From: Chondrosia reniformis
Lineage: Eukaryota > Porifera > Demospongiae > Chondrillida > Chondrillidae
Direction of reading: 5' to 3'
DNA length: 64,000 nt
Assembly (NCBI GenBank): GCA_947172415.1
Contig: OX359194.1
Location: forward strand, 1,116,001 to 1,180,000
Part shown: positions 25,201 to 47,165 of the stretch, one piece after another
Layout of the letters: the number at the start of each line of letters is the position of its first letter
How positions within the stretch are numbered: position 1 is the stretch's first letter
Position numbers and translations under genes: made by a program
The notes under the pieces: model-generated
What the model was told of the DNA's origin: nothing
The model's input: only the letters and a program-made list of their open reading frames with translations
Databases searched by the model: none

Positions 25201-25727
25201 ATGTGTCAGTGATGTTATACATTATTATTATACAGTGATGGTATGGGTCGTACTGGTGTGTTTATTACTGCTATGTCTGAGATTGAGAGAGTCAAATTTG
25301 AAGGAGAAGTTGACATATTTCAGACTGTCAAAGCCATTAGAGTACAAAGACCCAACATGGTCTCCACTGTGGTGAGTTACAAAGAATTGCATACTTGTAT
25401 CACTTCATTCCAAATCCAACTTACTACATTGGATTGATGACACAAGTGGCAGCCATTTTACTTTACCATAACACTATAAATGAGGATTCCATCTTTAACT
25501 GTGTAGAATGTATCTAACGGATGGATTAGATGTTAAGTACTGTAGTCTTTTTAAAGACACTAGTAGTTGTAACTATTGCAGATTGTATTTTGACTGAATT
25601 CCATATTATGTGATGTAACTCTTTGTTGATCTAATCTTCATTTTAGGATCAGTACAACTTGTGCTTTGAGCTCATTCAAGAATATTTACAGTCATTTGAC
25701 ACGTATGCCAATTTCAAAACTGTGTAA
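16138..25727 (+). CDS. Gene B: two-Ig receptor tyrosine phosphatase (complete)
   Basis: Complete RPTP with 24 exons totalling 2859 bases and encoding 952 residues: signal peptide 1-21, Ig1 about 22-117, Ig2 about 118-213, membrane helix about 234-258, juxtamembrane region to about 395, PTP D1 to about 684 and D2 to the end at TAA. The catalytic D1 cysteine is Cys588 and the D2 P-loop cysteine is Cys880. Predicted to act at the plasma membrane, sensing an extracellular ligand and dephosphorylating cytoplasmic phosphotyrosines. It lies tandem with its sister A, 1.3 kb apart. The start was chosen because it begins a hydrophobic leader and its exon ends in phase 1, fitting the Ig exon that follows. 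Confidence 0.9.
16465..17519 (+). CDS. Gene B, Ig domains 1 and 2
   Basis: Exons 16465-16752 and 17232-17519, both 288 bases and phase 1-1. Ig1 has cysteines in VILLCAYRG and GTYSCLGG with tryptophan in SKQWFT. Ig2 has cysteines in VKLECEWTG and AAYTCKIT with tryptophan in DRSWYSD, and is the orthologue-like partner of the gene A Ig exon. One-exon-per-domain structure with symmetric phase allows shuffling. Confidence 0.85.
17640..17727. repeat. Hairpin in the gene B intron
   Basis: Arms containing CTTTTGAAAGGGTCATCTT and AAGATGATCCTTTCAAAAG pair around a loop of about 35 bases, between Ig2 and the membrane exon. Probably a foldback element. Confidence 0.75.
17856..18924 (+). CDS. Gene B, membrane helix and juxtamembrane exons
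   Basis: Exons 17856-17994, 18132-18217, 18279-18371, 18480-18521 and 18841-18924. A Pro- and Ser-rich stalk is followed by a helix of V, L and I residues ending in LGMLLYLK and then by RNDKLHKL. The 42-base exon carries AYDEV and corresponds to the duplicated mini-exon pair of gene A. The donor of that exon is GTGTGG, weaker than the GTATGT donors in A. Phases are continuous. Confidence 0.8.
19041..22590 (+). CDS. Gene B, PTP domain D1 (catalytic)
   Basis: Exons 19041-19141, 19263-19344, 19899-19972, 20303-20339, 20647-20744, 20879-21007, 21652-21812, 22033-22168 and 22441-22590. The motifs are [46 protein letters not shown] and [16 protein letters not shown]. All catalytic residues are present. 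Exon lengths match gene A throughout (101, 82, 74, 37, 98, 129, 161, 136, 150), which argues for recent duplication and correct splice sites. Confidence 0.92.
20164..20290. repeat. Short tandem repeat, about 3 copies
   Basis: AT-rich unit of about 40-55 bases containing TATGTCTATATATT and CTATACATGTCTTATATG, repeated three times directly before D1 exon 20303-20339. Confidence 0.8.
22801..25727 (+). CDS. Gene B, PTP domain D2 (degenerate)
   Basis: Exons 22801-22900, 22980-23050, 23463-23597, 24122-24256, 24792-24940, 25236-25371 and 25647-25727. It keeps [24 protein letters not shown] and the P-loop CDDGMGRTG. The WPD position reads TKDWKADG. It is predicted to be inactive, like D2 of A and D. 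The C-terminal exon ends FKTV and stop, close to the ends of A (FKPV) and D (FKAV). Confidence 0.88.
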
Positions 25728-26407
25728 AACTGCAGTTGTCTCTCTATTTCTACTTTTTCATTTAATGCAGCAGTCTTTGAAATGTTATATATCTTATACA
25801 TGCACAATAACTTATGAAAGATAAGTTTATTGGAGCTATCAGCAACAAAATTGAGCTAGATTGAACGTTTCGACCCGTAGGTCTTCATCAGCAGTAAGAC
25901 CTACGGGTCGAAACGTTCAATCTAGCTCAATTTTGTTGCTGATAGCTCCAATAAACTTATCTTTCATAATGAACGCAACTAAAATTACCCCCTATCATTT
26001 CACAATAACTTATATATTTACATTTATATTGGTTCTTCCTTAAGTACTATATAGTATTTCATTGTTGCATATACATACATAATATGTAAAACATAATAAA
26101 ATTAATGTACATATATACATGCCATCATAATACAGTATACGTACATATTAGTTTTGCATTAAATTTTAGAAGAGAAGCAAAGTACGCTACCAAATAAACT
26201 GATCACGATATATAAGATGAAGTTGGTGTCAACAATTACAAATATCCATAAAATAATGCCAATGGTTTTTAGCAATATAATTTTGCTATATCTCATACCA
26301 TATACGTACATGTACATACCAGGTTGAAGCAATGCAGATACAGATCATGACTGACTGAATAATGTACTGTAATAGTTTTAGTATATAAAGGATCAATGTT
26401 TTCTGTT
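25728..26407. other. Convergent intergenic region between B and E
   Basis: The 3' UTRs of B (+) and E (-) face each other here. The region holds a long foldback at 25812-25969 and otherwise AT-rich sequence with AATAAA-like motifs, including 25950-25955 inside the foldback. No gene is seen. Confidence 0.65.
25812..25969. mobile_element. Foldback element with GGTCGAAACGTTC core
   Basis: Almost perfect palindrome with arms of about 72 bases: TTATGAAAGATAAGTTTATT at the left end, its reverse complement at the right end, and GACCTACGGGTCGAAACGTT near the centre. The same core (GATGAAGACC...GGTCGAAACG) appears in degraded form near 8655, 52060, 52980 and 60530, so this is a family of foldback or MITE elements. 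Confidence 0.85.
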
Positions 26408-26897
26408 TTATTGTCTTCTTCTCTTTGGTGGAATAAGAGGTGGTTTTGTATATGCTGGATTGGGGTGAATATCAATAGCTTTCTCCGTTGTGGCTACTGA
26501 AGAGCCCTTGGGTCGTGAGTAATGTGGACATTCTACTGGCAATTGATACTCCGAGAGGTCATACTCTGAATCAGAGTTTGTAGACTGAACAGTAGAGATT
26601 GGTTGCATATATGGAAAGGGTCTATTTAATGGCTGTTGGTTGCCATCTTCATTCCTACTGCTTGTAGTGGGTCGAGTGCTGTATATTTCCACATAACTGT
26701 CTCTATCTGCCAGACTTGCAGAGTCGTAGATGTGCTGGCTCCTTGTGCTCTGTAGGGTGATTGGTAACCTTGGCAACAGAGGTGGTCTGTGAGTGATGGC
26801 TGTAGTTGGATTGGACTGTCCTGCAGTTGCATGTACTTCACTTTCTCTCATCATTTGAGTAGTCGATTGCAGCATTCTCTTTCTTCTAATACAAAAG
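26408..26897 (-). CDS. Gene E, cytoplasmic tail with tyrosine and proline motifs
   Basis: A 162-residue tail in one exon. Tyrosines sit in HIYDSA, DSYVEIYS, SEYDLSEYQLP and PHYSRP, and there is an NPAY motif (NPAYTKP) of the PTB-binding type. It ends with PPLIPPKRRRQ, which fits a proline-rich SH3-binding site. No enzymatic domain is visible. The motifs suggest an adaptor-docking tail regulated by tyrosine phosphorylation, hence a possible substrate of neighbouring RPTPs (inference only). Confidence 0.65.
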
Positions 26898-27951
26898 CTA
26901 TTTAGCAATAAAAGGTTCTTTAATTAACATTTTAATTATGTAATAAAATTTTACATTCGTAAGTCATACAAATTTTATACTTGTCCTATATAAACTCACC
27001 ATGTTAGGATTGTTGTTAGAAGTGCATTTATTAATACCAAAAATATTGCTCCAAATCCAATTCCCATTCCCATTGCCATTACTGGTAAAATGGAATCCGA
27101 TCTGTGCTTCAACTCTTTGGTAGTGAAATTAGCAGCTATATTAACAGGACAATTTTGTTGGTATATATTCAATCAGAAACAACTTTTAAACATTTTATAG
27201 AGCATTGTACTGTACAAAAATCAGTAATATATAATCTAGGTCTATATATGCTATCATAATATATAGAGTCTTACGAATTCTGATGGATACTTGTGGGATC
27301 ACATCTTTGCTTTTGTCTGATATAGGAATAGTTAGACAGCAGTTGAAAACTTCAGTCTTGTAAGTAGTTCTGTACTGAATTTGAGCCTCATATCTTAGTC
27401 TACATCCACATAAAAGTTTGTACATATTATAATGACTATAATATTATACATTAACCTATATACGTATTATGATATTTGACTGGGGCTAATTAAATTGAAA
27501 AAATCATTTAATAATAATTATTTATTCATTCTTACATATAGTGACAAATTCTTTTTAAACCAAAGAGTGTCTTTGTACATGTTTTATAGCTGTAGCTTCT
27601 TAATAAAGAGTACGACTGACTGGTCGATGCATTGCGGTAACAAGTGCTGCATCTATGTATAAATATACAGTATATTATACATATATAAGGTTGAATATTT
27701 ACTCATGTAGGTGGATATACGTACGTGTACATCTATGCACATGTATATACATATACTATATAATGAATACACATATAGGTATAATACACATTTAAGGCAT
27801 GCATCTCTCACATTTGTTCTCCAGGGGGGCTGGGCTGGGCAGTGGCCAGAGAACAAAGATTGGAAACTATTACTATTATCAGTGATCCAGTTGAAATCCA
27901 TTTAACAAAGTTAAAAGGTATCCTGAGAATTCTTGATTCATAGTAGAACAT
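26408..27951 (-). CDS. Gene E: single-pass membrane protein with EMI-like domain
   Basis: Five exons on the minus strand: 27951-27812, 27652-27536, 27399-27275, 27135-27000 and 26897-26408. They join in continuous phase to 1008 bases, 335 residues plus stop. The N-terminus is basic, then hydrophobic (SLIIVIVSNLCSLATAQ), reading as a signal peptide or anchor. The ectodomain has six spaced cysteines ending in YRTTYKTEVFNCC, which resembles the EMI domain of extracellular matrix proteins (moderate confidence). A membrane helix (GMGIGFGAIFLVLINALL) precedes a basic anchor (CFCIRRKRM). It lies convergent to gene B and downstream of C. The tail exon could instead serve as an alternative C-terminus for C. 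No transcript evidence is available here. Confidence 0.6.
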
Positions 27952-28626: not shown

Positions 28627-29081
28627 TTAAATTTCTTCTTTAGTTGAAAGCGCCTTGGGATGTTCTTCAACCTTTTCGTACAAGTTTACTTGGTCATAAG
28701 CAGGATTTCTCTCCATTTTCATAGCTGTTCTCTCATAGCTATTAATACAAGGAGATGATTGATAATTTAACTGTATAATAATAAATTTTCTAAACTAATA
28801 ACAAAGTGTTGTGAACTTTACAGGTATCAGTATATACATAAGTGATATATTAGGAATATGCATATACATATACATATATCATAACAGACAACAAACTAAC
28901 TCTTCATTTTGTTGATCATTTCCCTTCCTTTTCGACCTCCAAGTCAACAGTTTAGTAGTTAAGAGTGTTCCCACTGCTCCTATGACAATGCCAACCACAA
29001 TACCTCCCAATGTACCTCCAAGGGCACAACCAACTACAGCACAATCCTTTGAATCTTCAACCTCCGGAGGAGCAATTATAA
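28627..29081 (-). CDS. Gene C, membrane helix and short NPAY tail
   Basis: The membrane exon encodes a stalk (PPEVEDSKDCAVVG), a Gly- and Val-rich helix (LGGIVVGIVIGAVGTLL) and a basic anchor (WRSKRKG). The last exon encodes the rest of the tail, with DYERTAM, NPAYDQV and NLYEKV, ending EEI and TAA at 28629-28627. The NPAY motif is shared with gene E. Neither exon resembles the membrane region of gene D, so homology with D ends just before here. Confidence 0.75.
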
Positions 29082-32000
29082 CTAAAACAAATTCAAAGAT
29101 TTCACTCTAATCATGATAATACTAATCTCATATTATACGTTATAATGTACATGTCTGTCTATCTGGTTTTGTAGACTTCAACTTGAGAATAAATGTATAC
29201 ATAAAAGTGTAATTCTAAGTTTTGAGTAAAAGAGAAAAATCTGAAATTTGTGGCTAAATTTATATACACCTGCACGACTGACAAAATATGAAAATCTAAT
29301 TACATGCAGCATACCCTCATTACTGAATACTCCCATTTCAAGAGGATTCAAAAATCTGGTTCTAACTTCCACTTGAACAGTGTAACTCTTTGATGTATCA
29401 AGCCCGGTAACGAGAATACTACTCTCTGTAGTGTTAGCATACTTCTCTTCATCAATGTAGACAATGTAGAATGGAAATCCTCTTGCTTCATGTAATGTAA
29501 GAGGTGTCCAAGTGATGATCAGAGTACTACCACTCCACTCTCCTCTGACCATCATCAGAGTTGTACATGTGTTAGGTGAAGGAGCTATAAGAATAATTCA
29601 ATAACAGTAATGAATGTACGTACTTATATATAAACATAAAAAAACATAAAATACAAATACTCTACAAATATATTTATCTCCAACCTAATTCCTGACTAAA
29701 AAATGTTATTTCCTCTGTTTCTCCATATCCTCCATTAGTACTTGCTCTTATTGTAAAGTGATATGGTACACCAGGAACTGTAAACATATGGACGGATATG
29801 TTAAAATATCCTTGCATATAAATATGCGTATGTAATATGTAATATGTGTAAATATGTAAATATATATATAATTCATGATCAATTTATACAATTAAACAAA
29901 AGATAATCTTGATTTCATAAATATTTTCCACCATCCATGGGTATTTATCAAATGTACGTATACATCATAAAATATACATAATGAATGCACTCTATACTAT
30001 ACCTATATGACACTCTTAGTGTATACGTATACTTACCTAAGTCCATTAAGTGGTACTCATTCATGTTTGGTGTGATATTCACATTCAATGTAGTCTCATT
30101 ACCAAGGATACCAAAGGTCACTGTATAACTAGTAATGTTACCAAATGTGTCTTCTTGTTCAGGTGGGCTCCACTTGATAGTCACCATTTTATTATTAATT
30201 GGAATTGCCGTTATATTTTGTACCTTTCCAGGACCTAATATTTAATATAAATTCAAATTATTTTTGTGCATCATATGTAACCCAGATCTGAACAGCATAC
30301 GCATATGTGAGTGCTCCCAGAAAAAGTTGTATTGCAACATAACAATTGCTACAATTGACTTTCCCTAGAAACTTAAAGAGAATGTGTGTACCAAGATTGA
30401 TTCTTTACATGGATTAATTAAAAATATATAGCACTTTGCCATTTTATAAATATATGATTTGAAAAGCATCCTTTTCAATTCTACTGCTAAGTGCTACTTT
30501 ATTCACATACATATGTACATGTCTTCAAACCTCTTACCTATAGGTACGGTAGTGATGATAATAGTAGCATTTGGTCCTGTTCCATTGACAGTCATAGCAC
30601 TAACAGATATATTGTATTCATTACTTTGCATTAGATCAGTTATAGTATAACTGTTCTCTGATCCTTGAAGAATCTGTTCATTAATGTAGCTGGTAGAAGT
30701 AGTGAGTTTGTACTTTACTACATATCCTGTGATTTCTCCATTTCTGTCTCTTTCAGTTGGTGGGTCCCATCTTAGAGTAGTTGAAGTAGATGAAGTGTCA
30801 GCCATGACATTGAGTGGTGGACCACTTGGAACTGAATGAAATGTAAATATATAATTAATTTGTTTATAATAGAATGTTAATAACTCATTGAAATATTTAA
30901 ATATGTAGCATGTAAATGTATAATTCATGATCATTTTATTATAATGTAACAAAATATAAACATCTTGATTTCATAGATATTTCTCACTTGCTGGTATGTT
31001 TTAAAGTTATTCACGTTTGTCTGAAACGTAACCTTACTTGGTAATGAAAAACAAAACACTACTCACCTGCTGAAGGCATTCTTATAGTGTTCATGTTAGA
31101 ATCACAAGAATCTTCTCCATTTGAAGATGTACATTCAACAGTGTAAGTAACATAAGGACTTAAACCATTCACTGTATACTGTAACACTGTACCAGTTTTA
31201 GTCTTTGGAGACAGACCATTCACAGTTGTAGATATAGTACACTTGTAAGTAAGTGAAGAAGATCTAGCTGGTGCAGTGAGTGTGATGATGAGTTGTGTTG
31301 AGGAACTGGCTGACAGTGAAGATACTGAAGGAGCTACAGGTATATATATTGTAAAGAGTGATAAAATATTCAAAACATCATTTAATAGGGCCTGCAATTG
31401 TAGAGGATATAAATACACATACTTATACAAGAACATAAATTATTTCTTCAGGTGTATATACGTACGTATACATATTATTGCTAAAGGTGGGAGTAAAGTA
31501 AATAACCTTTGGGTCTTGTAAACATGCTTCCTGTCACACGTTCTCCGCTTCCTGCCACATTCACTGCCTCTACACTAACTGTGTACTCTGTGTTATCCAT
31601 TAGACCAGTCAAGGTCGTACTGGTAGTACTGAGTGAGGAACTTGCATGTCTCCATCTAAATACACTTTATACGTCACTGACACAGCTCCAGGTCCACCAG
31701 TGTTAGATGGTGCTGTCCAAGTAACCATCAGTTGGTCACATGATCCAGTTGGAGGAGATATCATGAGGCTAGTGGGAGCACCTGGAACAGGATATTGTAT
31801 ATTGCAATAGTCAGTGGCATATATAATACTAATAACTGTGTATGCTTATATGTATTAAGCATTTATGTACGTACGTACGTATGTAGGTAACTTTACACGA
31901 GTATTTAGTTGGATATTTAGTGAATATCCTATATAATGCAGACCATATGCAAAGATGTTTTAATTAATGCATATGTATACATCACTCACCTGCTAGAGTA

Positions 32001-33954
32001 GTAACAAACACTGGTTCACTACCACAACAGTATGGTCCTGTTCCTAAACCAGTTCTTGTAGCAACTATGATACGATATTCAGTACTACTCTGTAAACCAG
32101 TTATATCTCTTTGAGTTGTACCAGCTCCAACTGTCACTGTCACATATGTACTATCTGACATTCCTCTTATCTTATACTGTATTGAGTATCCAGTGATGGG
32201 TAGACCTGTTGGAAGAGTTGGTGCAGTCCAAGATACTCTAATACCTGATAGTGGACTTGCCATTACATTAGTAGGAGCTGAAGCATCACTTGCTGGAAAT
32301 TGGGATAATTATAATTAAATTAACTATGAATTATAGAGCTAAATAATTAATAATTACTAACCTGTAAATGTAGTCTGTGACATTCTTGTACTGTAAGGTC
32401 CTTGTCCACCTGATGAAACAGCTGCTACCCAAATGTAGTACACTCTACCTTGTGTAAGTCCACTCAGTGTAGTTGATGTACCAGCAATTGCTGACATTGT
32501 TGATGCTCCAGATGGTGGTTCTGTTTCAGTACCACTACTTGTTGAATACCTCACAGTGTAGTTTATTCCAGATCCAGGTACTGCAGTCCATGAAACTGTC
32601 AAAGATGGAGATCCACCTGATATACCTCTTTTAACAGTGACACCTTGGACTTGAGGTGGAACTGAGGTATATATAAATGTAGAATGTATACGTAGTTAAG
32701 AAATTCACTCAACCAAATGTGCGCTTATGCACAATGGAGTTTGCTATATATTGTATGCTCACCTGTTGTAACAAAGATAGCTGTATTAATAGTCTGACAA
32801 CAGTATGGTCCTGTTCCTAAACCAGTTCTTGTAGCAACTATAATACGATATTCAGTGCTACTCTGTAAACCAGTTATATCTCCTTGAGTTGTACCAGCTC
32901 CAACTGTCACTGTTACATATGTCAATCCAGATCCTCTTATCTTATACTGTATTGAGTATCCAGTGATGGGTAGACCTGTTGGAAGAGTTGGTGCAGTCCA
33001 AGATACTCTAATACCAACTTGTCCTGATAGTGGACTTGCCAGTACATTAGTAGGAGCTGAAGCATCACTTTCTATGATAGAAGAAAGAAATTAGATAAAC
33101 ATAGATATATGTATTGTGAAAATACTTACACGACAAGGGTATAGAATAGAAAGAAAACATTCCATCTAAATTTAATGATTGATAATTTGAAACTACACTA
33201 TTATGTATTTACCTTCAAATGTAGTCAGTGACATTATTGTACTGTAAGGTCCTCGTCCATCTGATGAAACAGCTACTACCCAAATGTAGTACATTGTACC
33301 TTGTGTAAGTCCACTCAGTGTAGTTAATGTACCAGTGATTTCTGACACTGTTGATGCTCCAGATGGTGGTTCTGTTGTAGTTCCACTACTTGTTGAATAC
33401 GTCACATTGTAGGTTATTCCAGATCCAGATACTGCAGTCCATGAAACTGTCAAAGATGGAGATCCACCTGATACACCTCTTGTAACAGTGACACCTTGGA
33501 CTTGAGGTGGAGGTGGAGGTTGTGTTGGAGATGGCGATGATGATGGAGACAACGTTTGAGATGATGATGTCACTATATATAACATGTGTATAGGTAGATT
33601 ATATTTTAAGCAGCTAACTTATAAAATACCTCTTAAAGCACATAAATGACTGTAGATACGAAGATGGCTGGGATGTTACTATATGATTGGACCGGAGTGG
33701 AGATGGAGGTAATGTTTATAATATACATAGTCGAATTTCATTTGAACACTGATCACCTTTCGTAATTATAACAGTGACACCTTTTACTTGCTCAACTTGA
33801 AATGGTAAAGGTTTATTACAACAACTATAGTGCAATCTAAGTTACAACTTGTGTTTCGTAATCCGAAAGAGGCTACGATGTAACTTACGTACTAACCTCC
33901 GAAAGGCAGTAGATATATAACTACTAAAGAGATAACAATATTTGGATTCTTCAT
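28627..33954 (-). CDS. Gene C: FN3-repeat receptor lacking phosphatase domains
   Basis: Thirteen exons on the minus strand: 33954-33897 (signal peptide), FN3 exons 33572-33213, 33071-32763, 32661-32362, 32292-31990, 31781-31507, 31333-31067, 30831-30538, 30234-30037 plus 29777-29685, and 29584-29315, then the membrane exon 29081-28901 and tail exon 28738-28627. The ectodomain matches gene D exon for exon except that the D exons at 38421 and 39081 have no counterpart. The FN3 exon 31781-31507 has lost one base and its normal acceptor. If it is skipped, the rest joins in frame to 914 residues; if it is included, translation stops after about 500 residues. No PTP exon follows; the next gene downstream is E. 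Confidence 0.78.
29315..33656 (-). repeat. Inverted segmental duplication, left arm
   Basis: Reverse-complement counterpart of 34949-40236. Both exons and introns align; for example the intron after the first FN3 exon is almost identical in the two arms. The arm is shorter than its partner because it lacks two FN3 exons. The arms are separated by about 1.3 kb containing the two first exons and the shared promoter region. Confidence 0.88.
31507..31781 (-). pseudogene. Broken FN3 exon in gene C
   Basis: Length 275, not a multiple of three, whereas the gene D partner (36830-37111) is 282. Two lesions are visible. The acceptor that reads TCCAG in D reads TCCTG here, so the nearest usable AG is 6 bases further in (still in phase). 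One G is missing near 31641, where D reads CAAGGTTCC and C reads CAAGTTCC. The shifted frame reaches TGA at 31611-31609. The exon is symmetric (1-1), so skipping restores the frame. Confidence 0.85.
33897..33954 (-). CDS. Gene C, signal-peptide exon
   Basis: A 58-base exon encoding MKNPNIVISLVVIYLLPFG, with donor AG/GTTAGT in phase 1 as the first FN3 exon requires. It has the same length and phase as the first exon of gene D but a different sequence. Confidence 0.75.
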
Positions 33955-34780
33955 TCTCAAAAATCTCCGCAAAAGGCTTCGCCTCCTATATAATAACCTT
34001 CAACACAACGTCTGAACGCAATTATTTTGATATCTATAGCTATTTCGTCATCTGTTGGCACGTGAGAATAATCTATAAAAGTCAATTCCCTAGAGAAGAA
34101 TAATGCAATTAGCTACATAAGTTTATTCGCAGATTGGTTTCTACTTGTAAGTTAAAAGAGTAACTCTTTAAACTGTAACTTTTGGAACAGTTAGGTAACA
34201 GCATGAGAAAAACTGTCTATATACACGTCCAATTATAGTTGTAGGCTATATGTACCTATATACGTGTTGTGAGTATATATAATATAATCAAGCCAGATTA
34301 TAAACTTACAACTGTAATGTTTAATAGACATATATAGTGACTCATGGGCCCCTGCTTGGCCTTGTGCTCTTTTTTATGTGCATGTGTCACTTAATAAATG
34401 ATAACTAATATATATTATTTATATATAAAGTTACTGCTTCTACTTTCGCCAAATTATGCGTAAACGTACATGAGCCTCTTATCAATTTTAGGAGATTATA
34501 GAAACATCGATGTGAGGATTATGATGTCAAAATACATTTACTATAATGACAACAAGTACTGGTTGATAACAGGTATATATATATATGAGTATGATCATAG
34601 ATATATGACTATAAATTTTATTAAGTATATACATGGATGGCACTCTAAGGATAAAATTGTTATACAATACAATTTATACAATTATAATATGATTCTTTTT
34701 CCTATGTATATATGTATGAAATATGTATCTTCAATAATAAGGCTTGATCATGGATTCCTAGCTATACTTATATTAAATAT
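33955..34780. promoter_or_regulatory. Bidirectional promoter region of C and D
   Basis: An 826-base spacer between the divergent start codons of C and D. It must contain both 5' UTRs and both promoters unless further non-coding exons exist. A TATAAAAG sequence lies near 34075 in the + orientation, far from the D start, so it is not assigned. No coding feature is convincing inside. Confidence 0.5.
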
Positions 34781-37700
34781 ATGATGGTTCTTCTCTTTGC
34801 AGTTACAGTTTTAATTGGAATGGGTCCCAGTAGCGCAAGTAAGAAGTTCACTCAAACCTATTATTGTCTAATTAAAAAGAGAGAATTTACATGAAAGGAT
34901 CCTTATAATTATGTATATAGTATATATGGGTTTCAAGTGGCTTTGTATCTACAGTAATTTATGTGCTTTAAGAGGTATTTTATAAGTTAGCTGCTTAAAA
35001 TATATAATCTACCTATACACATGTTATATATAGTGACATCATCATCTCAAACGTTGCCTCCATCATCATTGCCATCTCCAACATCACCTCCACAACCATC
35101 TCAAGTTCAAGGTGTCACTGTTACAAGAGGTGTATCAGATGGATCTCCATCTTTGACAGTTTCATGGACTGCAGAATCTGGATCTGGAATAACCTACACT
35201 GTGAGGTATTCAACAAGTAGTGGTAATACAACAGAACCACCATCTGGAGCATCAACAATGTCAGGAATCACTGGTACATCAACTACACTGGGTAAACTTA
35301 CACAAGGTACAATGTACTACATTTGGGTAGCAGCTGATTCATTAGGTGGACAAGGACCTTACAGTACAAGAGTGTCAATGACTACATTTGAAGGTAAATA
35401 CATAATAGTGTAGTTTCAAATTATCAATCATTAAATTTAGATGGAATGTTTTCTTCATCTTATCTATTCTATACCCTTTTCGTGTAAGTATTTTCACAAT
35501 ACATATATCTACGTTTATCTAATTTCTTTCTTCTATCATAGAAAGTGATGCTTCAGCTCCTACTAATGTACTGGCAAGTCCACTATCAGGAAAAGTTGGT
35601 ATTAGAGTATCTTGGACTGCACCAAATCTTCTAACAGGTCTACCCATCACTGGATACTCAATACAGTATAAGATAAGAGGATCCGGAATGTCATATGTGA
35701 CAGTGACAGTTGGAGCTGGTACAACTCAAGGAGATATAACTGGTTTACAGAGTAGCACTGAATATCGTATTATAGTTGCTACAAGAACTGGTTTAGGAAC
35801 AGGACCATACTGTTGTCAGACTATTAATACAGCTGTCTTTGTTACAACAGGTGAGCTACTATGCATACAATATATAGCAAACTCCATTGTGCATAAGTGC
35901 ACATTTGGTTGAGTGAATTTCTTAACTACGTATACACTCTACATTTATATATACCTCAGTTCCACCTCAAGTCCAAGGTGTCACTGTTAAAAGAGGTGTA
36001 TCAGGTGGATCTCCATCTTTGACAGTTTCATGGACTGCAGTACCTGGATCTGAAATAAACTACACTGTGAGGTATTCAACAAGTAGTGGTACTGAAACAG
36101 AACCACCATCTGGAGCATCAACAATGTCAGCAATCGCTGGTACATCAACTACACTGAGTGGACTTACACAAGGTAGAGTGTACTACATTTGGGTAGCAGC
36201 TGTTTCATCAGATGGACAAGGACCTTACAGTACAAGAATGTCACAGACTACATTTACAGGTTAGTAATTATTAATTATTTAACTCTGTAATTCATAGTTA
36301 ATTTAATTATAATTATCCCAATTTCCAGCAAGTGATGCTTCAGCTCCTACTAATGTAATGGCAAGTTCACTATTCGGACAAGTTGGTATTAGAGTATCTT
36401 GGACTGCACCAACTCTTCCAACAGGTCTACCCATCACTGGATACTCAATACAGTATAAGATAAAAGGATCTGGAATGACATATTTGACAGTGACAGTTGG
36501 AGCTGGTACAACTCAAGGAGATATAACTGGTTTACAGAGTAGCACTGAATATCGTATTATAGTTGCTACAAGAACTGGTTTAGGAACAGGACCATACTGT
36601 TGTCAGACTACACCGCTCTTTGTTACAACAGGTGAGTGATACATACATATGTACTAATTAAAACATCTTTGCATATATAATATCATAGCTACCAAATGGT
36701 CTACATTATATAGATATTCACAATCCAACTAAATACTAGTGTAAAGTAGACTACGTACATAAATGCTTAATTAAGAATACGTATACTATTAGTATTATGC
36801 CACTGACTATTGCAATATACAATATCCAGTTCCAGGTGCTCCCACTAGCCTCATGATATCTCCTCCATCTGGATCATGTGACCAACTGATAGTTACTTGG
36901 ACAGCACCATCTAACACTGGAGGACCTGGAGCTGTGTCAGTGACGTATAAAATGTATTTAGATGGAGCCATGCAAGGTTCCTCACTCAGTACTACCAGTA
37001 AGACCTTGAGTGGTCTAATGGATAACAAGGAGTACACAGTTAGTGTAGAGGCAGTGAATGTGGCAGGAAGTGGAGAACGTGTGACAGCAAGCATGTTTAC
37101 AAGACCCAAAGGTTATTTATACTACTCCCACCCTATAGCAATATTAAGGATGTACGTATATATATACCTAAAGAACTTTATGTTCTTGTTTGGGTATAAG
37201 GATGTCGTCTGCAATTACAGGCCTTATTAAATTATGTTTTGGATATTTTATAAATCTGTAGCTCCTTCAATATCTTCATTGTCAGCCAGTTCCTCAACAC
37301 AATTCATCATCACACTCACTGCACCAGATAGATCATCTTCTCTTACTTACAAGTGTACTATATCTACAACTGTGAGTGGTCTGTATACAAAGACTGTAAC
37401 TGGTACAGTGTTACAATATACAGTGGATGGTTTAAGTCCTTATGTTACTTACACTGTTGAATGTACTTCTTCAAACGAAGAGGATTCTTGTGATTCTAAC
37501 ATGGACACTATAAGAATGCCTTCAGCAGGTGAGTTGTGTTGTTACAGAATCTATATATAATTTCTGTGAGTGGGTTATAATAAAGATACTCTTACAGTTG
37601 TATTGTATTCTCATAGCAAACGCAAGCGTAATTGGTTTCATAATTATGTAAATCACGACTGTTTAAAATCTTTTACTTCTCTATTAGAGGGAAACATGTT

Positions 37701-40700
37701 TATTATTGTAGTTTAGTGTATGATATCATTGTTTATGCAGCTAGCTAGTGTATTCTATGCAGTATTAGTGTATAATATCGTTTACTTCTTTTATACAGTA
37801 CCAAGTGGACCTCCTCTTAATCTAAGAGCTGAACCATCCAGGGATTCAGCCATTTTAACATGGGATCCACCAGCTGAGAAGGACCAAAATGGAGTAATTA
37901 CTAGATATTTGATAAAGTACCAGTTAAGTAGTGATTCATCAAGTCAGATGACAAGAACAGTTGGAGCAGTAACTCAATTATCATTGGATAATCTGATGAC
38001 TGGAGCGACATATAATTTTACTGTAGCTGCTACTAATAGTATTGGAACTGGACCTGATGCTACCATGGTGATGTTCACAACAATTCCTGATAGTAAGGTT
38101 TTATAAATTAGTACACATTATGTAGTTCTGAGAATCACCAATAAATGTATTATATTGAAACTGTATAGCTGCCCATAAAAATATCAGCTCTGTGATTTGT
38201 GATGAAAGCAAGTTAGCCTCACAAGTTGTACAGTCAGTGTACTCCTCACTAGTTAATTAACTTACATTTGAATTAGAAGCTATCAATGGAAAGAGTTTGA
38301 AGCAAATACTTTCAATTTAGTATTATGTTTTGTTACTAAACCAGATATTGCTCATGTTTATTTGAGTGTGATTTAAATATAGTGAGACTGATATCTATTA
38401 ATTTTTATATTAACCTTTAGTTGAGAATCTCAGAATATCAGAAGTAACAACCAGTACAATCACCATAACTTGGGATGCTCCTCATAATGGTTACACTGTA
38501 GGTAACCGTTATACAGAAGCTACTGATTCATCTACTGAGGGAACACAAACTAGAAAACCTAATGGTACACCTCAAGATGAACATACGTTTGGAAGTTTAA
38601 ACTCTTTCAGAGAGTACAGAATGTTTGTCAGACTAAGGAACACTGGTGGAAATGGATCCTACAGCAGTATTACAGCAAGGACTCTTGGGAAAGGTAAACT
38701 ATAATATAAGTTGCATTATATAGAATTAGAATTAATTGTGTAGTTATTATAAGTTAATATACGTTATTATTTAAATTTGTGCCTTTTATTAAATGTGATC
38801 AGAGTTAAGTAAATTACCGAAGTAGGCAATAAAAATGTTTTACTTTTACAGATCACTTAAGATTTAAAAATTCTAGATATACGTTTAACTATCAGTTTTA
38901 CATTCAGATTACAAGATATATATGACATACGTATTGTATGGTATGGTGCAAGATTAGGAACTGTAACTTGAAAATCTTCTGTAATCTTTCTGTAACTTTG
39001 CAATTACAAATGGTAATACAATTTGTACATGCACTTCGTATAAGATTCTACTGACCTTTTGAGGCATTCCTATTATACAGCTCCAACTGTTCAACCTAAG
39101 AACTTCAGTTCCATTCCAAATATAACATTTATAACTGTTGAATGGAGTGCACCAGATTTATGGGAGAGAAATGGAATCATCACTAACTACATCATTGAAT
39201 GGGGAGAGACTGGAAGCTTGACAACTCTCAATTACCCAGTACCTAATCCAACATTCAATACTACAAATAGACTGAGTTATAACTTTACAGGATTGACACC
39301 ATTTACTACATACAACTTTAGCATAGCAGCAGTCAACATCAATGGAACCGGACCATTTAGTGAAATATTAGAGGAAAGTACTGATGAAGAAGGTACATAA
39401 GTTATATATTATTTAGAAATGTGTTAATCTGTTCTGCTAATTCACAAATGATGCAAATTAATGTTTTAATTTATTAATAGTTCCTGGAAAGATAAAGAAT
39501 TTAACGGCAGTTTCAATTAGTAATAAAATGGTGACTATCAAGTGGAGACCACCTGAACAAGAAGACACATTTGGTGACATTACTATTTATACAGTGACCT
39601 TTGGTATCCTTGGTAATGAGACTACATTGAATGTGAATATCACACCAAACATGAATGAGTACCACTTAATGGACTTAGGTAAGTATACATATACACTAAG
39701 AGTGTCATATAGGTATAGTATAGAGTGCATACACATGGATATTTCTACAGTTCCTGGTGTACCATATCACTTTACAATAAGAGCAAGTACTAATGGAGGA
39801 TATGGAGAAACAGAGGAAATAACATTTTTTAGTCAGGAATTAGGTTGGTTATATATACATATGTTTATATGTTTGTAGTGTTTTTACATTTTGCATATCT
39901 TACGTATGTTTTTCTATGCTTACATATAAGTACATTAAATATATTCATTACTGTTCTTCATTGTTCTTATAGCTCCTTCACCTAACACTACTCTGAGGAT
40001 GGTCAGAGGAGAGTGGAGTGGTAGTACACTGATCATCACTTGGAAACCTCTTACACTTCATGAAGCAAGAGGATTTCCATTCTACATTATCTACATTGAT
40101 GACAGTGAGTTTGCTAACACAACTGAAAGTAACATTGATGTCGTTGGACTTGATACATCAAAGAGTTACACTGTCCAAGTGGAAGTTAGAACAATCGCTT
40201 TGAATGAAAGTGAAATGGGAGTATTGAGTAGTAAAAGTATGTCATCATTTTTACCTATACATAATGAAGAAATATAACCCAAAAATCACACACACACATA
40301 TATACGTATAATTACAGTCGACTCCTGATATAACGAACACCAAAATCCCAGCATAATTGTTCTTTATAAAAGAAGTTCTTTATAACCAAATGTACTTTAT
40401 TTGTATATAACTATACAAATAAACTACTCATCAGTGCAGTATGAATACAGTAGAATGCTTACAAAATTAAAATTACGTAAAATAGTATATTAATGGTACT
40501 CAGGGTGGACTTTTCAACTGAAAATTCGTCACAAATACCCTTCTCCTTCCTCCCTTTATCCACTTCGTCCAGTAACTTCGGTTTAAGAATGATAAATACA
40601 GCCGTTTTTGGCTTCACACATACATAATCATAAGTTAACACGTTCGTTATAATAGAAGTTTGTTTAGGGTTGTTTGTAATAAACAGAAGGAATTGAATGG

Positions 40701-43700
40701 ACAGGAAATTGTTTTTTGATAATCGTTCGTTATAACCCAAAATTCGTTATGAGCGAGTTCGTTATAGGTGGAGTCGACTGTATATATATTTAACATGAAT
40801 ACGTATGTGCAGTGTATATTTTATTGCCAACAAATACCTGATTGACTAAAGCCTGTGTTACAACATGTACAACTATTATTTATATTTGACGTATATGTGG
40901 AGTAGGTACACAACTATTATTTGAACTAACAGTATATGGACTATCATAAAATCCAGAGTCAAATGATGAAACATCGAAGCTTACATTATATAAGATCAGC
41001 TTCTGAATCAGTTTATGGACTAATAACTTATATATTATTCATTTGACATATACTGTTATCTTTGAAAATATGCATCTTCCAAACAAAATATGCAGCTATT
41101 CTGTCAGATGCTTTCTGCAGCAAGAAATCAGTTACAACATTGTGTATTATGTCTATTTCCTCTTTATTCAGTCACTGTATCAGCCAGGACCACAATATCA
41201 CTTGTGGCATTAGGCATTGGCCTTGCTTTTGGTGTAATCATTGTTTTGATCATAACCGTTGGCATAGTGACAGTAGTGATTTGGTGAGTTATGCATTACT
41301 AGCTAGTGTGGACAATCATTAAATGAAAAATATACGTACGTACATATTTTGAAATGGTTTCATTTAATTTGTAGTGTTTGCAAGCATGGTACTGGTGTTG
41401 CTACCACTGTTGTTAGAAAGAAGAGAGAGAAACTTGAACTGAATTTGTTAAATACGTACAACCTGGAATTAGATTGTGGTAAAAAGTCTTTAAGATGCCA
41501 ATGTTACAATTGAAGTATTGTCAATAGTCCTGTATACAATATCTTGTTCCCCTTTAGGTAGTGTAACTCCAATACCAGCTAACCAATTTGCCAAGCATGT
41601 CCGAAGAATGCATTTCCATGGTGATATGGGTTTTGAGAAGGAATATGAGAAAGTTCAGAATGATCCCACTGGAGAAGATAACATTGCAAGGGAACACTAT
41701 AGCAAGAATCGCTACCTCAACATTTTCACTTGTAAGATTATCACGTCATGAATGCACAATAAAACATTTCCCTAAATTACGTGTTTAAACATAATAATTG
41801 TATATATAATATTTTAGATAATCATTCAAGGGTTAAATTACTGGTTCCTGATGAAGAAGGGGACGACTACATTAATGCATCCTACATACATGTAAGTTTT
41901 ATATACGTAAGTGGAAGAACTGAATCATTATACACATAATATTATGGTATTTCATTTATTGATTACAGGGATTCAATAGAGAAAATGCCTATATTGCATC
42001 TCAGGGTAAGAGACATATACACAATAATTATATATATATAGGTAATTCCTTCATATTATATAGTGAAATAGTTGCATAATACTACAATACACGTCTAACC
42101 AACCATTAGCGTACATTAATAATTTTCAGACTTGATTGTTTAAGGGATTTACTGTACATTTTCACACATCCACACATCCAAAAAGAATTTAGTTTTTAAG
42201 TATATATTTTTACAGAAGGTGTAAAATGTATTTTCCAAAGAGAATGTTTAAAAATTTGTATTAGCCCAAAAAATAGTGAAATAACAAGAGAAAGAGAAAT
42301 CTTTGCACACTTTACAATAGTTTTGAAGCAATTTACATTCACCAGAGTGACACAACATATTATTATTTGTGTATTATGTATACAGACAGTACATATATAC
42401 TGTTTCCAATTTCAATTTCTATACTATCTTATTACTTATTGCTCTTTCATATATGTATTTCTATTTCTAGATATAGATATATTCACTTTTCATCATGCAG
42501 GCCATTAGCATTGGAATTGACTCATAATAATAAATCACCTCATTTCATTTTGTTGCAATATGTTGGCATACATGCACAATTACTCCTGCTATATATGTAC
42601 ATGTACTTTGTATTTGAATGATGTATTCTTTGTTGTATAATACATTTCTCTGTGTCAGGTCCTACATCAGCTACGATTGCTGATTTCTTGCAGATGGTCG
42701 TTGACCACAAGGTTCCAGTAATTGTCATGTTGACACTCTATGAAGAAAAGGCTAAGGTGACCTTACTAATGTATACAGAACCTATTAATTATGTCCATAT
42801 ATCTAGTGGAATAAGAGGTTCTAAGTGGTATAGTATAAAATGTATAATATTAATGTATATATATACATACGTGTAAGTATGTGGAGAGGTACTTAGCAAT
42901 CAGTTGGTGATAAGCAGTAATAGCCTTAGGCCATGAGACTGATATGTCTTAAAATGGTATTATATACTATATAGTATATAATGTATTCTTAGAATGTAGA
43001 TTACGGTTCATTTTCTAATATGTGATAATTTTATATAATTTGCAATTTGGTCTAATTATAGGGTTGATAATCTAAAAAGGTTTTTATAATCATACTTTTA
43101 ATAGATGATAAGTTATTATATCAAATCAAGATACATTTTGTATGTACGTACGTATATGAGATGTCATTATGAAATATGTACGTACGTATATAGTCAGTAA
43201 GTACTATATAATATATTATAAAAACAGTTAGGTATGTACACATATAAATGTACACATATAGATAGAGAGTCCAAGCAGGTGTTATACATTTTGTGATGTT
43301 ACAGTATACGTATAATATCCATGCACTTCAGTATTTATAATACATATATAACGGTTGTATTTGTGTATATATACTTACAATAATTGTATATGCTTCAATG
43401 CTGTGCCAATCACTTATTGATGCATGATAGAAACAGTCATCATTCATTCATTTGGTAACATTTAAATTATTCCCTCAATGTGTTTCAAACTTAGCCTAAA
43501 TGTGAGAAATACATGGGAAGTGATGATGGGACAGTTTTTGCTACACAGAGAAACCTTCAAGTGGTTGTCAACTCTAAACTTGAGTTCAGTGACTATGAAA
43601 AGAGGGAATTAGTAATCAGAAATGTGAGAAACAAAACACTAACTCCACATACTATAATATTATATACGTATGTGTGTGTGCATGCCATCTATCTATATAT

Positions 43701-46700
43701 ATATTCAAACTCCCACTTATATAGAGCCGGCATATATACATACATTATGTACATATTTATAGTCAAGCATGCGTTATTATAGGAGATTTAACAGAAACTA
43801 TTACTTGATTATGTATACATTCTGATCATAAGAAGTTAAGAGAGTTGTGTTATACATATTATAGAGTGCTACACCACATGTGAAGCCTCATAGGCTGACA
43901 CACTTCCTCTACACCTCCTGGCCTGATCATGGAGTACCTCAACATCCCTCTGCCATGATCAAGTTTGTACAACAAGTTAGGAAAGTGTACAACAACAGCT
44001 CAGCACCAATGATTGTACACTGCAGGTACGTATATAATATAGTATGCATATACACATAGTATGCTAACTTATATGTGTATAGGTTAGCCACTCCAAATTG
44101 TCCAATGTCCAATGCAGTTGAAGTATATATAGTGTATATACAGTATATACGTACATACAGTGTACGTATATATGCTATACTTATACACCTGCATGTGTAT
44201 AATACAGTGCAAGTTATATAATTGTAGTTTAACCACTCTATTAATTATGATCCAATCCTTTTAAACTTTGTCCAATTGAAACTTGAAATCGTTAATATTT
44301 GTTCTATATACCTCAACTTTCTTTTCAGTGCTGGAGTAGGTCGTACTGGTACATTCATCACTATTGATACAATGCTGCAGAGATTGAATGAGAGAGATGA
44401 TCTTAACATTTATGAGTTTGTAATGCAAATGAGAACGAGGAGAACATTTATGGTGCAAAACCAGGTAAGCTGTCATCACTGTATGTGCATGGATAGCTCT
44501 ATTGAAACTTAAAGAGGAATGTGTATAATAAATGTATATAGTACATATTTTTTCTATTTACCTGATTGAAAGTGCCATACCCTGGTATTTATTGATGTAT
44601 TGTCACTTCTCTTTGAAAATAAAAATATTGCTCAATTTATATATAATTTCAGAAATTTACTTTTTATATGAGTTTGTAATGAAAAATGAGCTCTTCTAGG
44701 AATTAAAAGTTGTTTTACCTTCAGCAAACTCCACAAACAAGAAAGTGAAATATTTGGTATTACTGCATACATGTGCTAAGTGTACATGTGTGAAGAGGTT
44801 CATTTACTAAACAAGTTTGAGTGCCTTTAAACACTGAAAATGTCAGAGGATGAACCTTTTCAAAGAGAAGTTTGACATATGCGTATTACATAGAAGAAGT
44901 TCTTATCATATATCCTTATCCAGTTATATAAGATATATATATATATTTGTGAATACATATAGATTACCATTCAGGTTGAATTACATTGTATTATATTTAG
45001 GATCAGTATACCTTTATTCATGATGCGGTTAATGACTTTATCTCGTGTGGAAGCACTGCCATTGCTTCACATGAGCTGAGGAGATTCATTTATGAAAATG
45101 ACCAATTGGAATCAAAAGGGAAAAAAAGTAAAACTGGTTTTCAAAATGAATTTGAAGTAAGCACAATTAAAAAGTGGAAACATCCTTTAATTGCATGTAT
45201 GATTGTGTAGAAATTATATTCAATCCTAAATGCCTATATATTATATTTTATATGTCACAAAGAGTGTATAAATAAATTTGTTATTTTTCTAAGAAACTTG
45301 TCGATATGTCAAAGACAGTATCATCAACCGATGTCACAAATGCTGCTAAAGCTGCCATTATTAAAAGGAATAGATACAAAGATAGATTTCCTTGTGAGCT
45401 ATACAATATAATACTAAATATACACACACATATATAGACAGGAACCTTTCTGAGCAGCTTAAAATCACCAAATACATTTGTTTCTCTCACTTTTAGATTT
45501 TAATAATAAACTTTGTGTTGTTGGTCCTGGAAAGTCGTCTGCTAATGGATCAGATTACATCAATGCCTCCTACTGCAATGTACGTCTATTCATAAAACAG
45601 ATTATACTGGTATATAAGTATTTGAGAAGGTACGTATGTATTCAACGCATTCTTATATTTTAGAGCTATTCTAAGCAAAAGGCTTTCATTGCATGTCAAG
45701 CACCTCTGGAGACAACAAAAGAAGACTTTTGGACACTTTCATGGCAACTAAAACTGGAGACTATTGTAGTACTCTGCAACTTCAACAATAAGACTCAAGT
45801 ACATACTTCAGGGGGCCTACATACGTATATACTTCTTTTTTCTAAATATAGTATAAAGTATTGTTATACAAATTATAGTAAAAAATGTACAAATTGTACA
45901 ATTATAGAATTATAAATAGTAAATATCCAACCACTGCAGCCTCCTTGTGTTCAATTTTGGCCAACAAAGGAAGAAAAGTCTACTTTGTTTGGAAACATCA
46001 AAGTATCTTACATCAGTGAGACAGGACTCAATGATTGTTCTGTTTACAAAATGGAGATAGAAAATAGCAAAATGGTTGGTATGAAATTTATGTATTGATG
46101 TGTGTTATTTTGGTATATATACTGTATATACAAGATATCAACACTGCGGATGTTATATAGGACTAGTCCATTCACAGAGGCTACTAATAAAGCACATTTC
46201 ATATTTATCTGAAGTTATCGTCAATGTTCTATCTAAATTTTGTATGAAAATTGGCGACAACCTTCTAGGACATGCTCATCTAGTCATATGCATGTCGTTC
46301 TGTTATCAATATGTATTATTCTGTTACTCATACTTTGCAATAATGTGCATAATACATATAAAAGCATTACTTTCTAATGTGATACACATTCATCTGTACC
46401 ATATATACTCTAAATTAAATGGCTGCTATCTTCAAAATTGCAGAGTGTCATGCCCCATTTTGAGGTTACTCTGTATCACTACAAAGAATGGTATTTGGAA
46501 GGCACTCCTCCACTGACATCTCTACTGAAGCTGATGGGCGACATAGAGGGAGTTCAAAAGAAGAGCTCTAAACCTATTGTCATCATGTGCGAGTAAGTTC
46601 AACTTACAATTATATATAGGAGACATTTATTTCATCTACATAGCCATAATTATTTGTAGTGATGGTATGGGTCGTACTGGTGTATTCATAACTGCTATGT

Positions 46701-47165
46701 CTGAGATTGAGAGAGTTAAAATTGAAGGAGAAATTGACATATTTCAGACAATAAAATCAATGAGAACAAAGAGACCCAAAATGGTCTCCACTGTGGTAAG
46801 TACCCTTAGTATTCTAAAAACTATCATATTTATACAAAATACGTATTATAGGTGAACTCTTAATTATTCATGTACAGTACGTACGTATATAATACCTAAA
46901 TGATTGTTCAAATTATACTCTTTGTTTACCAATGTTATATTACTGCAATGTCAATTTTAGTTTTTTTTCCATTCTAAAAGTATATATACCATTGACATGA
47001 AGATATGCATTATATAAATTGCACATGTATAAAAATGTAAGTACAATATATGTACGTAGTATTACATATTGCATCTATATGCAGGATCAGTACAAGTTGT
47101 GTCATGAGATTCTTCAAGCTTACTTGGATTCATTTGATACTTATGCTAACTTCAAGGCTGTGTGA
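34781..47165 (+). CDS. Gene D: FN3-repeat receptor tyrosine phosphatase (complete)
   Basis: Complete model: exons sum to 5313 bases, 1770 residues. Signal peptide 1-19, eleven FN3 or FN3-like modules to about residue 1104, membrane helix about 1112-1139, juxtamembrane segment, PTP D1 (catalytic Cys1400) and degenerate D2 (P-loop Cys1698). The architecture resembles LAR-like and PTPRB-like FN3 RPTPs, but I cannot assign orthology to a vertebrate class. It would act at the plasma membrane. It diverges from C across a shared promoter region and is followed by F 1.2 kb downstream. The start was chosen for its hydrophobic leader ([19 protein letters not shown]) and a phase 1 donor. A longer 5' end is possible. 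Confidence 0.9.
34949..40236 (+). repeat. Inverted segmental duplication, right arm
   Basis: Matches the reverse complement of 29315-33656 across FN3 exons and their introns. The similarity begins near the sequence TTTATGTGCTTTAAGAGG in the first intron and ends with the last FN3 exon. Beyond that point the two genes have unrelated membrane regions. Confidence 0.88.
35034..40236 (+). CDS. Gene D, FN3 array
   Basis: Exons 35034-35393, 35542-35850, 35960-36259, 36329-36631, 36830-37111, 37262-37528, 37799-38092, 38421-38693, 39081-39392, 39481-39678 plus 39751-39843 (one domain in two exons), and 39973-40236. All are phase 1-1. Modules show FN3 marks such as [26 protein letters not shown] and [10 protein letters not shown]. 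The first module carries a Ser/Pro-rich leader. The module at 37262 has extra cysteines (YKCTIS, VECTSS, DSCDS) and is a divergent FN3-like or Ig-like domain. Modules 1 and 3 form one subtype, 2 and 4 another, showing an old two-domain duplication. Confidence 0.88.
40315..40780. mobile_element. MITE-like element with CAGTCGACTCC ends, copy 2
   Basis: A 466-base element in the gene D intron between the last FN3 exon and the membrane exon. The ends are CAGTCGACTCC and GGAGTCGACTG with TA directly outside on both sides. Subterminal ATAACGAAC and GTTCGTTATA are also inverted. It has no transposase. It shares its termini with 10565-11062. Confidence 0.88.
41172..41731 (+). CDS. Gene D, membrane helix and juxtamembrane region
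   Basis: Exons 41172-41283, 41375-41478 and 41558-41731. The helix reads [20 protein letters not shown] and ends IWCVCKHG. It is followed by basic residues (VVRKKREKL) and then the conserved RPTP segment [14 protein letters not shown]...GFEKEYEKV leading into SKNRYLNI. This segment is the usual membrane-proximal helix-turn-helix ahead of D1. Gene F has matching exons of 127, 104 and 177 bases. Confidence 0.85.
41818..45156 (+). CDS. Gene D, PTP domain D1 (catalytic)
   Basis: Exons 41818-41891, 41969-42005, 42659-42756, 43495-43623, 43865-44025, 44329-44464 and 45001-45156. The motifs are [54 protein letters not shown] and [16 protein letters not shown]. All catalytic residues are present. 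Exon boundaries coincide with those of A and B, so the FN3 and Ig RPTPs of this cluster share one ancestral PTP gene structure. Confidence 0.92.
45294..47165 (+). CDS. Gene D, PTP domain D2 (degenerate)
   Basis: Exons 45294-45393, 45497-45579, 45664-45798, 45940-46074, 46444-46592, 46660-46795 and 47085-47165. Keeps [37 protein letters not shown] and P-loop CDDGMGRTG. The WPD position reads YKEWYLEG, so the general acid is absent. Ends FKAV and TGA at 47163-47165. Confidence 0.88.

Follow-up and report, generated by a model that had tools for sequence, protein, structure and literature searches.

A head-to-head pair of FN3 receptor genes, one with phosphatase domains and one with a short tyrosine-motif tail, in the sponge Chondrosia reniformis

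Structure of the two divergent genes

The assembly of the sponge Chondrosia reniformis is described in PMC12181767 as consisting of 117.37 Mb in 14 chromosomes plus the mitochondrion, with a quality value (QV) of 69.8 for the primary haplotype. The window analyzed here, i.e., a stretch of 64,000 nucleotides (C6:1116001-1180000, plus strand; C2, C6, C12, and C13 are genome records), harbors two genes, referred to as C and D, which are arranged head-to-head and whose ectodomains are made up of fibronectin type III (FN3) domains. Gene C (33954-28627, minus strand) has 13 exons, including those for nine FN3 domains, and ends in a short cytoplasmic tail; gene D (34781-47165, plus strand) has 30 exons and encodes two protein tyrosine phosphatase (PTP) domains. 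All gene and exon positions are window coordinates, and the exons, their phases, and the signal peptides were predicted from the sequence. The whole-genome exon searches covered 117,379,552 bases in 15 records, and the exon-by-exon comparisons with the nearest relatives (blastn, E 1e-3) were performed on 304 kb of sequence. Three further genes entered the comparison, that is, E (a further FN3 gene), F (the other gene of the tail class in the contiguous 104 kb), and G (a phosphatase gene). The features of the locus are the following:

33897..33954, minus strand: exon 1 of C, putative signal peptide MKNPNIVISLVVIYLLPFG, with ATG, hydrophobic core, and phase-1 donor (prediction only)
33213..33572, minus strand: FN3 exon e2 of C
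33071-32763, 32661-32362, and 32292-31990, minus strand: FN3 exons e3-e5 of C
31507..31781, minus strand: FN3 exon e6 of C, with a 1-bp deletion at about 31641 (seven-exon alignment; split tblastn match)
31333-31067 and 30831-30538, minus strand: FN3 exons e7 and e8 of C (e8 is 92% identical to F and 60% to D)
30234-30037, 29777-29685, and 29584-29315, minus strand: FN3 exons e11, e12, and e13 of C
28901..29081, minus strand: transmembrane exon of C, from hydropathy (92% identical to F; no match to the transmembrane exon of D)
28627..28738, minus strand: cytoplasmic tail exon of C, ending in YERTAMKMERNPAYDQVNLYEKVEEHPKALSTKEEI and a stop, member of a conserved tail-exon family
33955..34780, no strand: 826-bp spacer separating the start codons of C and D, which might serve both genes as a divergent promoter
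34781..34838, plus strand: exon 1 of D, putative signal peptide (prediction only)
35034..40236, plus strand: FN3 exons e2-e13 of D, 11 FN3 domains (phase-1 exons, GT-AG sites; Pfam)
41172..41283, plus strand: transmembrane exon of D
41375..47165, plus strand: juxtamembrane part and two PTP domains of D

The exons of D have consistent phases and give an open frame of 1770 amino acids, in which Pfam recognizes 11 fn3 and two Y_phosphatase stretches, e11 and e12 together forming one FN3 domain. In the first phosphatase domain (D1), whose signature crosses the junction of exons 43865-44025 and 44329-44464, the KNRY motif, the WPD loop, HC(x)5R, and the Q-loop (QDQYTF) are all present; the second one (D2) reads CDDGMGRTG, its catalytic signature being lost and the domain degenerate. 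This agrees with the catalytic PTP and the D2 domain that the initial annotation had assigned to D, as does the structure of C with the different helix and the short tail assigned to it, since its transmembrane exon is unrelated to that of D and its tail exon ends at 28627. In the 304 kb searched, blastn (E 1e-3) matches the transmembrane exon of D to nothing but itself, and two FN3 exons of D (38421-38693 and 39081-39392) are without a counterpart in C. The intron preceding the transmembrane exon of D contains an element (40314-40781) with the ends ACAGTCGACTC and GAGTCGACTGT, which resembles a short transposon with terminal inverted repeats.

An AATAAA signal is located 64 nt past the normal stop of C. 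A defective acceptor at e6 of C (cctg for ccag) was considered and dropped, since the AG is also absent in two of the seven other copies; moreover, an in-frame ttccag six bases downstream would be usable. Directly downstream of C, on the minus strand, lies a module (26408-27395) with a second transmembrane segment and a long tail containing the tyrosine motifs YVEI, YDLSEYQL, and NPAY and a proline-rich end (PPLIPPKRR). Its sole other protein match in the genome is partial (C6:1219299-1219427), and the 3' flank of C is partly repeated there. The phases are compatible from e13 of C to the transmembrane exon of the module, but for an additional exon (27395-27276), which starts in phase 2, there is no partner upstream; the module might provide C with another 3' end or be the remnant of a gene.

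The head-to-head inverted arrangement described in the initial annotation is real, the arms being complementary and the stops falling exactly at 28627 and 47165. The inverted arms (511, 468, and 394 nt, 93-98% complementary) lie between 32248 and 36373. From e2 to e7, the DNA identity between C and D is 92, 97, 99, 92, 96, and 93%, respectively (percentages in the arms refer to aligned columns, and e5 has 18 gapped columns in addition); the introns lying between e2 and e5, three in all, reach 97-99%, and the following two 85 and 78%. Identity drops to 60% in e8 and is 84% in e13. The match takes in exons e2-e7 and exons e11-e13 and extends for 93 bp into intron 1, before e2, but no further; the earlier statement that FN3 exons and introns match holds for these exons and for the introns from e2 to e5, and fails for e8 and for the two D exons missing in C. 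The alignment of the arms, which the initial annotation had left to be made, thus gives 92-99% identity for exons e2 to e7, and the match spares both the signal-peptide exons, which lie outside the arms and are 40% identical, and the promoter halves. The remaining halves of the spacer have no blastn match to each other beyond 14 bp; the spacer might possibly act as a promoter shared by C and D. The possibility that the inversion is an assembly artefact (a fold-back), raised at the outset, was rejected because the window contains no N, the arm exons differ by 0-16% (40% in e8), and the spacer is largely non-homologous; the QV of 69.8 is in line with this.

Exon mosaic and the tail-exon family

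In the 304 kb read, C is a mosaic: e2-e6 and e11-e12 are D-like (95-100% identity to D in e11 and e12), e8, e13, the transmembrane exon, and the tail exon are F-like (e13 being 96% identical to F over 245 nt), and e7 is nearest to phosphatase genes located at 600-800 kb. D is a mosaic as well, its e8 being nearest to the 600-800 kb phosphatase genes, e9 to G, e10 to F, and e11-e12 to C. A second case is given by the tail-class gene F and the phosphatase gene G, which share 1232 aligned bp at 92% and whose e6 exons are identical at 269 of 270 nt, so that C and F, the two tail-class genes available over their full length, both show exon exchange between the classes. The FN3 exon e7 has 119 hits in the genome, and copies at least 79% identical adjoin both PTP and tail exons. 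The e8 exon of C (e8C) was rejected as a tail-class marker, since two of its four close copies (among the best 150 of 543 candidates) lie upstream of PTP exons.

The synonymous divergence (dS) between C and D is 0.013-0.026 in e2-e4, 0.025 in e11, and 0 in e12; it rises to 0.11-0.13 for e5 and e7 and to 0.33 for e13, where that between C and F is 0.12. Since this range is more than tenfold across exons, a single duplication without recombination is not sufficient. The range and the exon mosaic fit gene conversion; for C and D, a recent inverted partial duplication would fit equally well. That the near-identical distal FN3 domains of the two genes stem from a recent inverted duplication and/or gene conversion is demonstrated at the level of their sequences. 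The ratio of nonsynonymous to synonymous divergence (dN/dS) between C and F is 0.39 in e13, 0.44 in the transmembrane exon, and 0.22 in the tail. Between C and D, e2 gave a ratio of 4.1 (Fisher p = 0.013, uncorrected, one of eight exons computed), which was discarded as a robust signal since it is gone on pooling (e2-e4, p = 0.10; e2-e5, p = 0.39).

The account of C given by the initial annotation was incomplete, in that it missed both the 1-bp deletion in e6 and the family to which the tail exon belongs. The tail-exon query disclosed 21 genome hits (E <= 0.1) in five places:

C6:0.82-1.19 Mb: 8 tail hits, C and F among them
C6:1.81-1.88 Mb: 6 tail hits
C6:5.09-5.10 Mb: 3 tail hits
C13:0.48-0.49 Mb: 3 tail hits
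C12: 1 tail hit

A further divergent copy, beyond the 21, is located at C6:974.8 kb. The hits of C, F, and C12 are weak (E 0.003-0.008), those of C and F being secured by a separate search, and six of the 21 contain an in-frame stop within the match, as would be expected for tails shorter than the query. In 14 of the 21 cases, an FN3 exon of the e13, e7, or e8 type is found on the same strand within 6 kb upstream. Sixteen tail copies were read directly (one of them cut by the end of its locus; the extraction pattern required YE or KE and NP[SA]Y), and they have in common YE...NP[SA]Y[DN]..[VI], the overall type being NPxYDxVNxYEKV; most of them show NPxY followed by YDxV and YEKV. Among the 14 copies comparable by codon, the proportions of synonymous and nonsynonymous differences (pS/pN) are 0.59-0.72/0.28-0.36 when the C/F group is compared with the rest. 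Two queries consisting of transmembrane segment plus tail gave nothing above the Pfam cut-offs. The conserved NPxY and the further tyrosine motifs suggest a second signalling or sorting output, rather than the mere loss of a phosphatase.

The receptor array around the pair

The C/D pair belongs to a far larger array of FN3 receptors and receptor phosphatases, whose entries are exon hits and not full gene models. D1-type catalytic exons have at least 69 hits in the genome (among the best 150 of 161 candidates), at least 32 of which fall in C6:607-1254 kb, together with nine tail-type exons. In a strand map of 41 entries, a tail-class entry borders six of the eight points at which the strand changes (label permutation p = 0.037; the map omits a gene at C6:960-963 kb with e7/e13 hits and neither D1 nor tail hit), which hints that tail-class genes might lie at inversions.

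Other observations concern the neighbourhood and related loci. On the minus strand of C6:325-462 kb there are dozens more e7-like FN3 exons (39-80% identity), and six e7 hits (45-90%) are found at C2:7.73-7.93 Mb, where no kinase appears near the e7-bearing genes among the matches listed (the best 134 of 1104). Within the window, gene B (16419-25400, plus strand) is a receptor phosphatase on a related PTP chassis that seemingly carries two weak immunoglobulin (Ig)-like exons, below the Pfam cut-offs, in place of FN3. Gene E (54550-55878, plus strand) contains four similar FN3 exon units spaced by exactly 356 bp, three of which are almost identical in protein, pointing to a recent tandem exon amplification. 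A long tandem minisatellite (5102-7756) has open frames of about 800-880 amino acids in all three minus-strand frames, and a perfect inverted repeat capable of forming a hairpin (arms of at least 45 bp, 10-bp loop) is located at about 25841-25940.

Possible roles of C and D and comparison with known systems

We lean towards the idea that C and D form a paired receptor, in which one ligand or contact partner would have two read-outs. The presumed ligand-binding ends of the two neighbouring genes are alike (92-99% in e2-e6, 97-99% in the introns from e2 to e5) and the cytoplasmic outputs differ, i.e., PTP D1-D2 versus an NPxY tail, on unrelated transmembrane exons. The comparison with paired receptors made in the initial annotation is favoured by these similar distal ectodomains on different outputs, by their recent homogenisation, and by the second case, F and G; it is weakened by the frameshift of C. 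Gene C belongs to a second class, having the same FN3 ectodomain family, a helix, and a short conserved tyrosine tail. D would remove phosphate from tyrosines close to the contact; the tyrosines of the tail class might be phosphorylated, allowing PTB/SH2 docking or uptake, and a phosphatase partner clustered by the same ligand could switch them off. By inference, the scheme supposes that the two receptors share a ligand and are expressed together, and that the tail is phosphorylated and its phosphate removed by the partner.

A number of observations weigh against the paired-receptor idea. The reading frame of C is broken in this assembly: e6 has lost one base at about 31641, which is retained in all seven aligned homologous exons (one each from D, E, F, and G, and three from array genes at 600-800 kb), and the tblastn match of C splits at this point. 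Read through e6, C reaches a stop at codon 501 (31611-31609); with e6 skipped, it stays open for 914 amino acids, containing eight fn3 stretches according to Pfam. C might work only as the e6-skipped form or as a truncated ectodomain, or might be a recently broken allele or pseudogene. The motifs of the tail are a further point. An immunoreceptor tyrosine-based inhibitory motif (ITIM) is [I/V/L/S]xYxx[I/V/L], and an activation motif (ITAM) consists of two YxxL/I 6-12 residues apart; in the C and F tails, position -2 from the tyrosine is P in YDxV and N in YEKV, and no more than 2 residues separate the motifs. By the usual definitions, the predicted C tail is neither an ITIM nor an ITAM, so that it gives no cue to the signalling direction. 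In the tail comparisons, moreover, pS is well above pN only where the C/F group is involved, the other group pairs giving 0.11/0.09, 0.19/0.19, and 0.27/0.15 and the largest group 0.043/0.044 internally. Also to be counted against the idea are the seven of the 21 tail hits (C6:821, 838, 1025, 1032, and 1038 kb, and 5.085 and 5.093 Mb, five of them within the array) with no FN3 hit of the family upstream in the hit lists, their ectodomains being unread. Lastly, e8C does not keep to the tail class, and a class-wide head-to-head pairing is weak (six of the eight strand switches, as given above), F being co-stranded with its neighbours.

The frameshift gives weight to a serious rival, which appears plausible if somewhat less probable: C might be a pseudogene or a dying copy, born as an inverted duplicate of the 5' end of D fused to an old tail-class gene, then frameshifted and roleless. 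The deletion in e6, absent from the seven homologous exons, and the loss of two FN3 exons are in keeping with a recently broken C; yet the deletion is the single disabling change found over the 13 exons, the introns are bounded by GT-AG at the sites used, no stop interrupts the signal-peptide, transmembrane, or tail exon, the skipping of e6 keeps the frame, and the C-F dN/dS is below 0.5 in e13, the transmembrane exon, and the tail. The initial annotation had instead inferred that C is a non-catalytic decoy, a role that has lost support because the tail is one of a family of conserved exons carrying NPxY and further tyrosine motifs. To compete with D for the ligand, C would be either a membrane form that gives no signal or a secreted piece of about 500 residues that terminates in e6, and the absence of a phosphatase, the distal FN3 domains matching those of D, and the frameshift, which would end the protein inside e6 without the helix, can be quoted in favour of a decoy. 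A signal-less decoy should have no conserved intracellular motif, whereas the tail exon of C has 21 genome hits, 16 of them aligned; moreover, a premature stop in the middle of a gene is a usual target of transcript decay. Of all the readings, the pure decoy is favoured least, and it is an improbable one.

Two wider readings concern the whole class. It is possible, although rather unlikely, that the tail-class genes encode endocytic uptake receptors and that they share ectodomains with phosphatases just because exons are reused in an array that evolves fast. In most of the tails read, YDxV and YEKV come after NPxY, the NPxY and YxxV motifs could be sorting signals, and exons, e8C included, are shuffled freely; however, NPxY signals of the low-density lipoprotein (LDL) receptor type usually have an aromatic residue at position -5 before the tyrosine, where these tails have D or E. 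More speculative, and to be regarded as improbable, is the idea that the array is a sponge locus for self/non-self or symbiont recognition, with about 32 phosphatases and about nine tail receptors that share, through gene conversion, a single stock of FN3 exons. The same contact would gather a phosphatase and its own substrate receptor, forming matched signalling/erasing pairs of the same specificity, and the outermost FN3 domain would be diversifying (the e2 dN/dS of 4.1).

As for D, the best PDB matches of its D1 domain, i.e., its closest solved relatives, are PTPRS/LAR, and the tandem D1-D2 is another trait shared with this R2A subtype. The R2A ectodomain combines Ig and FN3 domains, whereas D has FN3 domains only, no Ig domain being matched by Pfam, and has lost the catalytic signature of D2. 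The R3 phosphatases (PTPRB/J/O/H/Q) share with D the FN3-only ectodomain, but have a single PTP domain in contrast to the two of D. Judged by its predicted domains, D is a receptor tyrosine phosphatase that resembles LAR in having two PTP domains but whose ectodomain is FN3-only, fitting exactly neither R2A nor R3. In sponges, an R3 member is reported in PMC5336234.

No such sponge cluster is described in the literature searched, at the level of titles and beginnings of abstracts, the full texts being mostly unread. The receptors for cell recognition in sponges are a long-standing open question. The Alr allorecognition complex of Hydractinia, a clonal marine invertebrate, is a cluster of receptor genes with tyrosine-motif tails; unlike the array described here, it is based on Ig-like domains.

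The closest known design is that of the primate genes SIGLEC11 and SIGLEC16, which, according to PMC5701461, are arranged head-to-head, have N-terminal exons kept alike by gene conversion, and signal differently, SIGLEC16 having an allele with a 4-bp deletion. Like C and D, they thus combine a head-to-head order, similar N-terminal exons, different outputs, and a frame-breaking deletion in one partner. They differ in being Ig-lectins about 9 kb apart that signal through an ITIM or an ITAM adaptor, whereas C and D are FN3 receptors, one with a built-in phosphatase, that belong to a cluster of about 40 genes and have their start codons 826 bp from each other; the resemblance would be one of design and not of ancestry. 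Paired receptors homogenised by gene conversion are already known from vertebrate immunity. If the paired-receptor idea is true, the same design would have arisen independently, from FN3 phosphatases and tyrosine-tail partners, in an early-branching animal, and the locus would be a concrete, testable candidate for sponge cell recognition.

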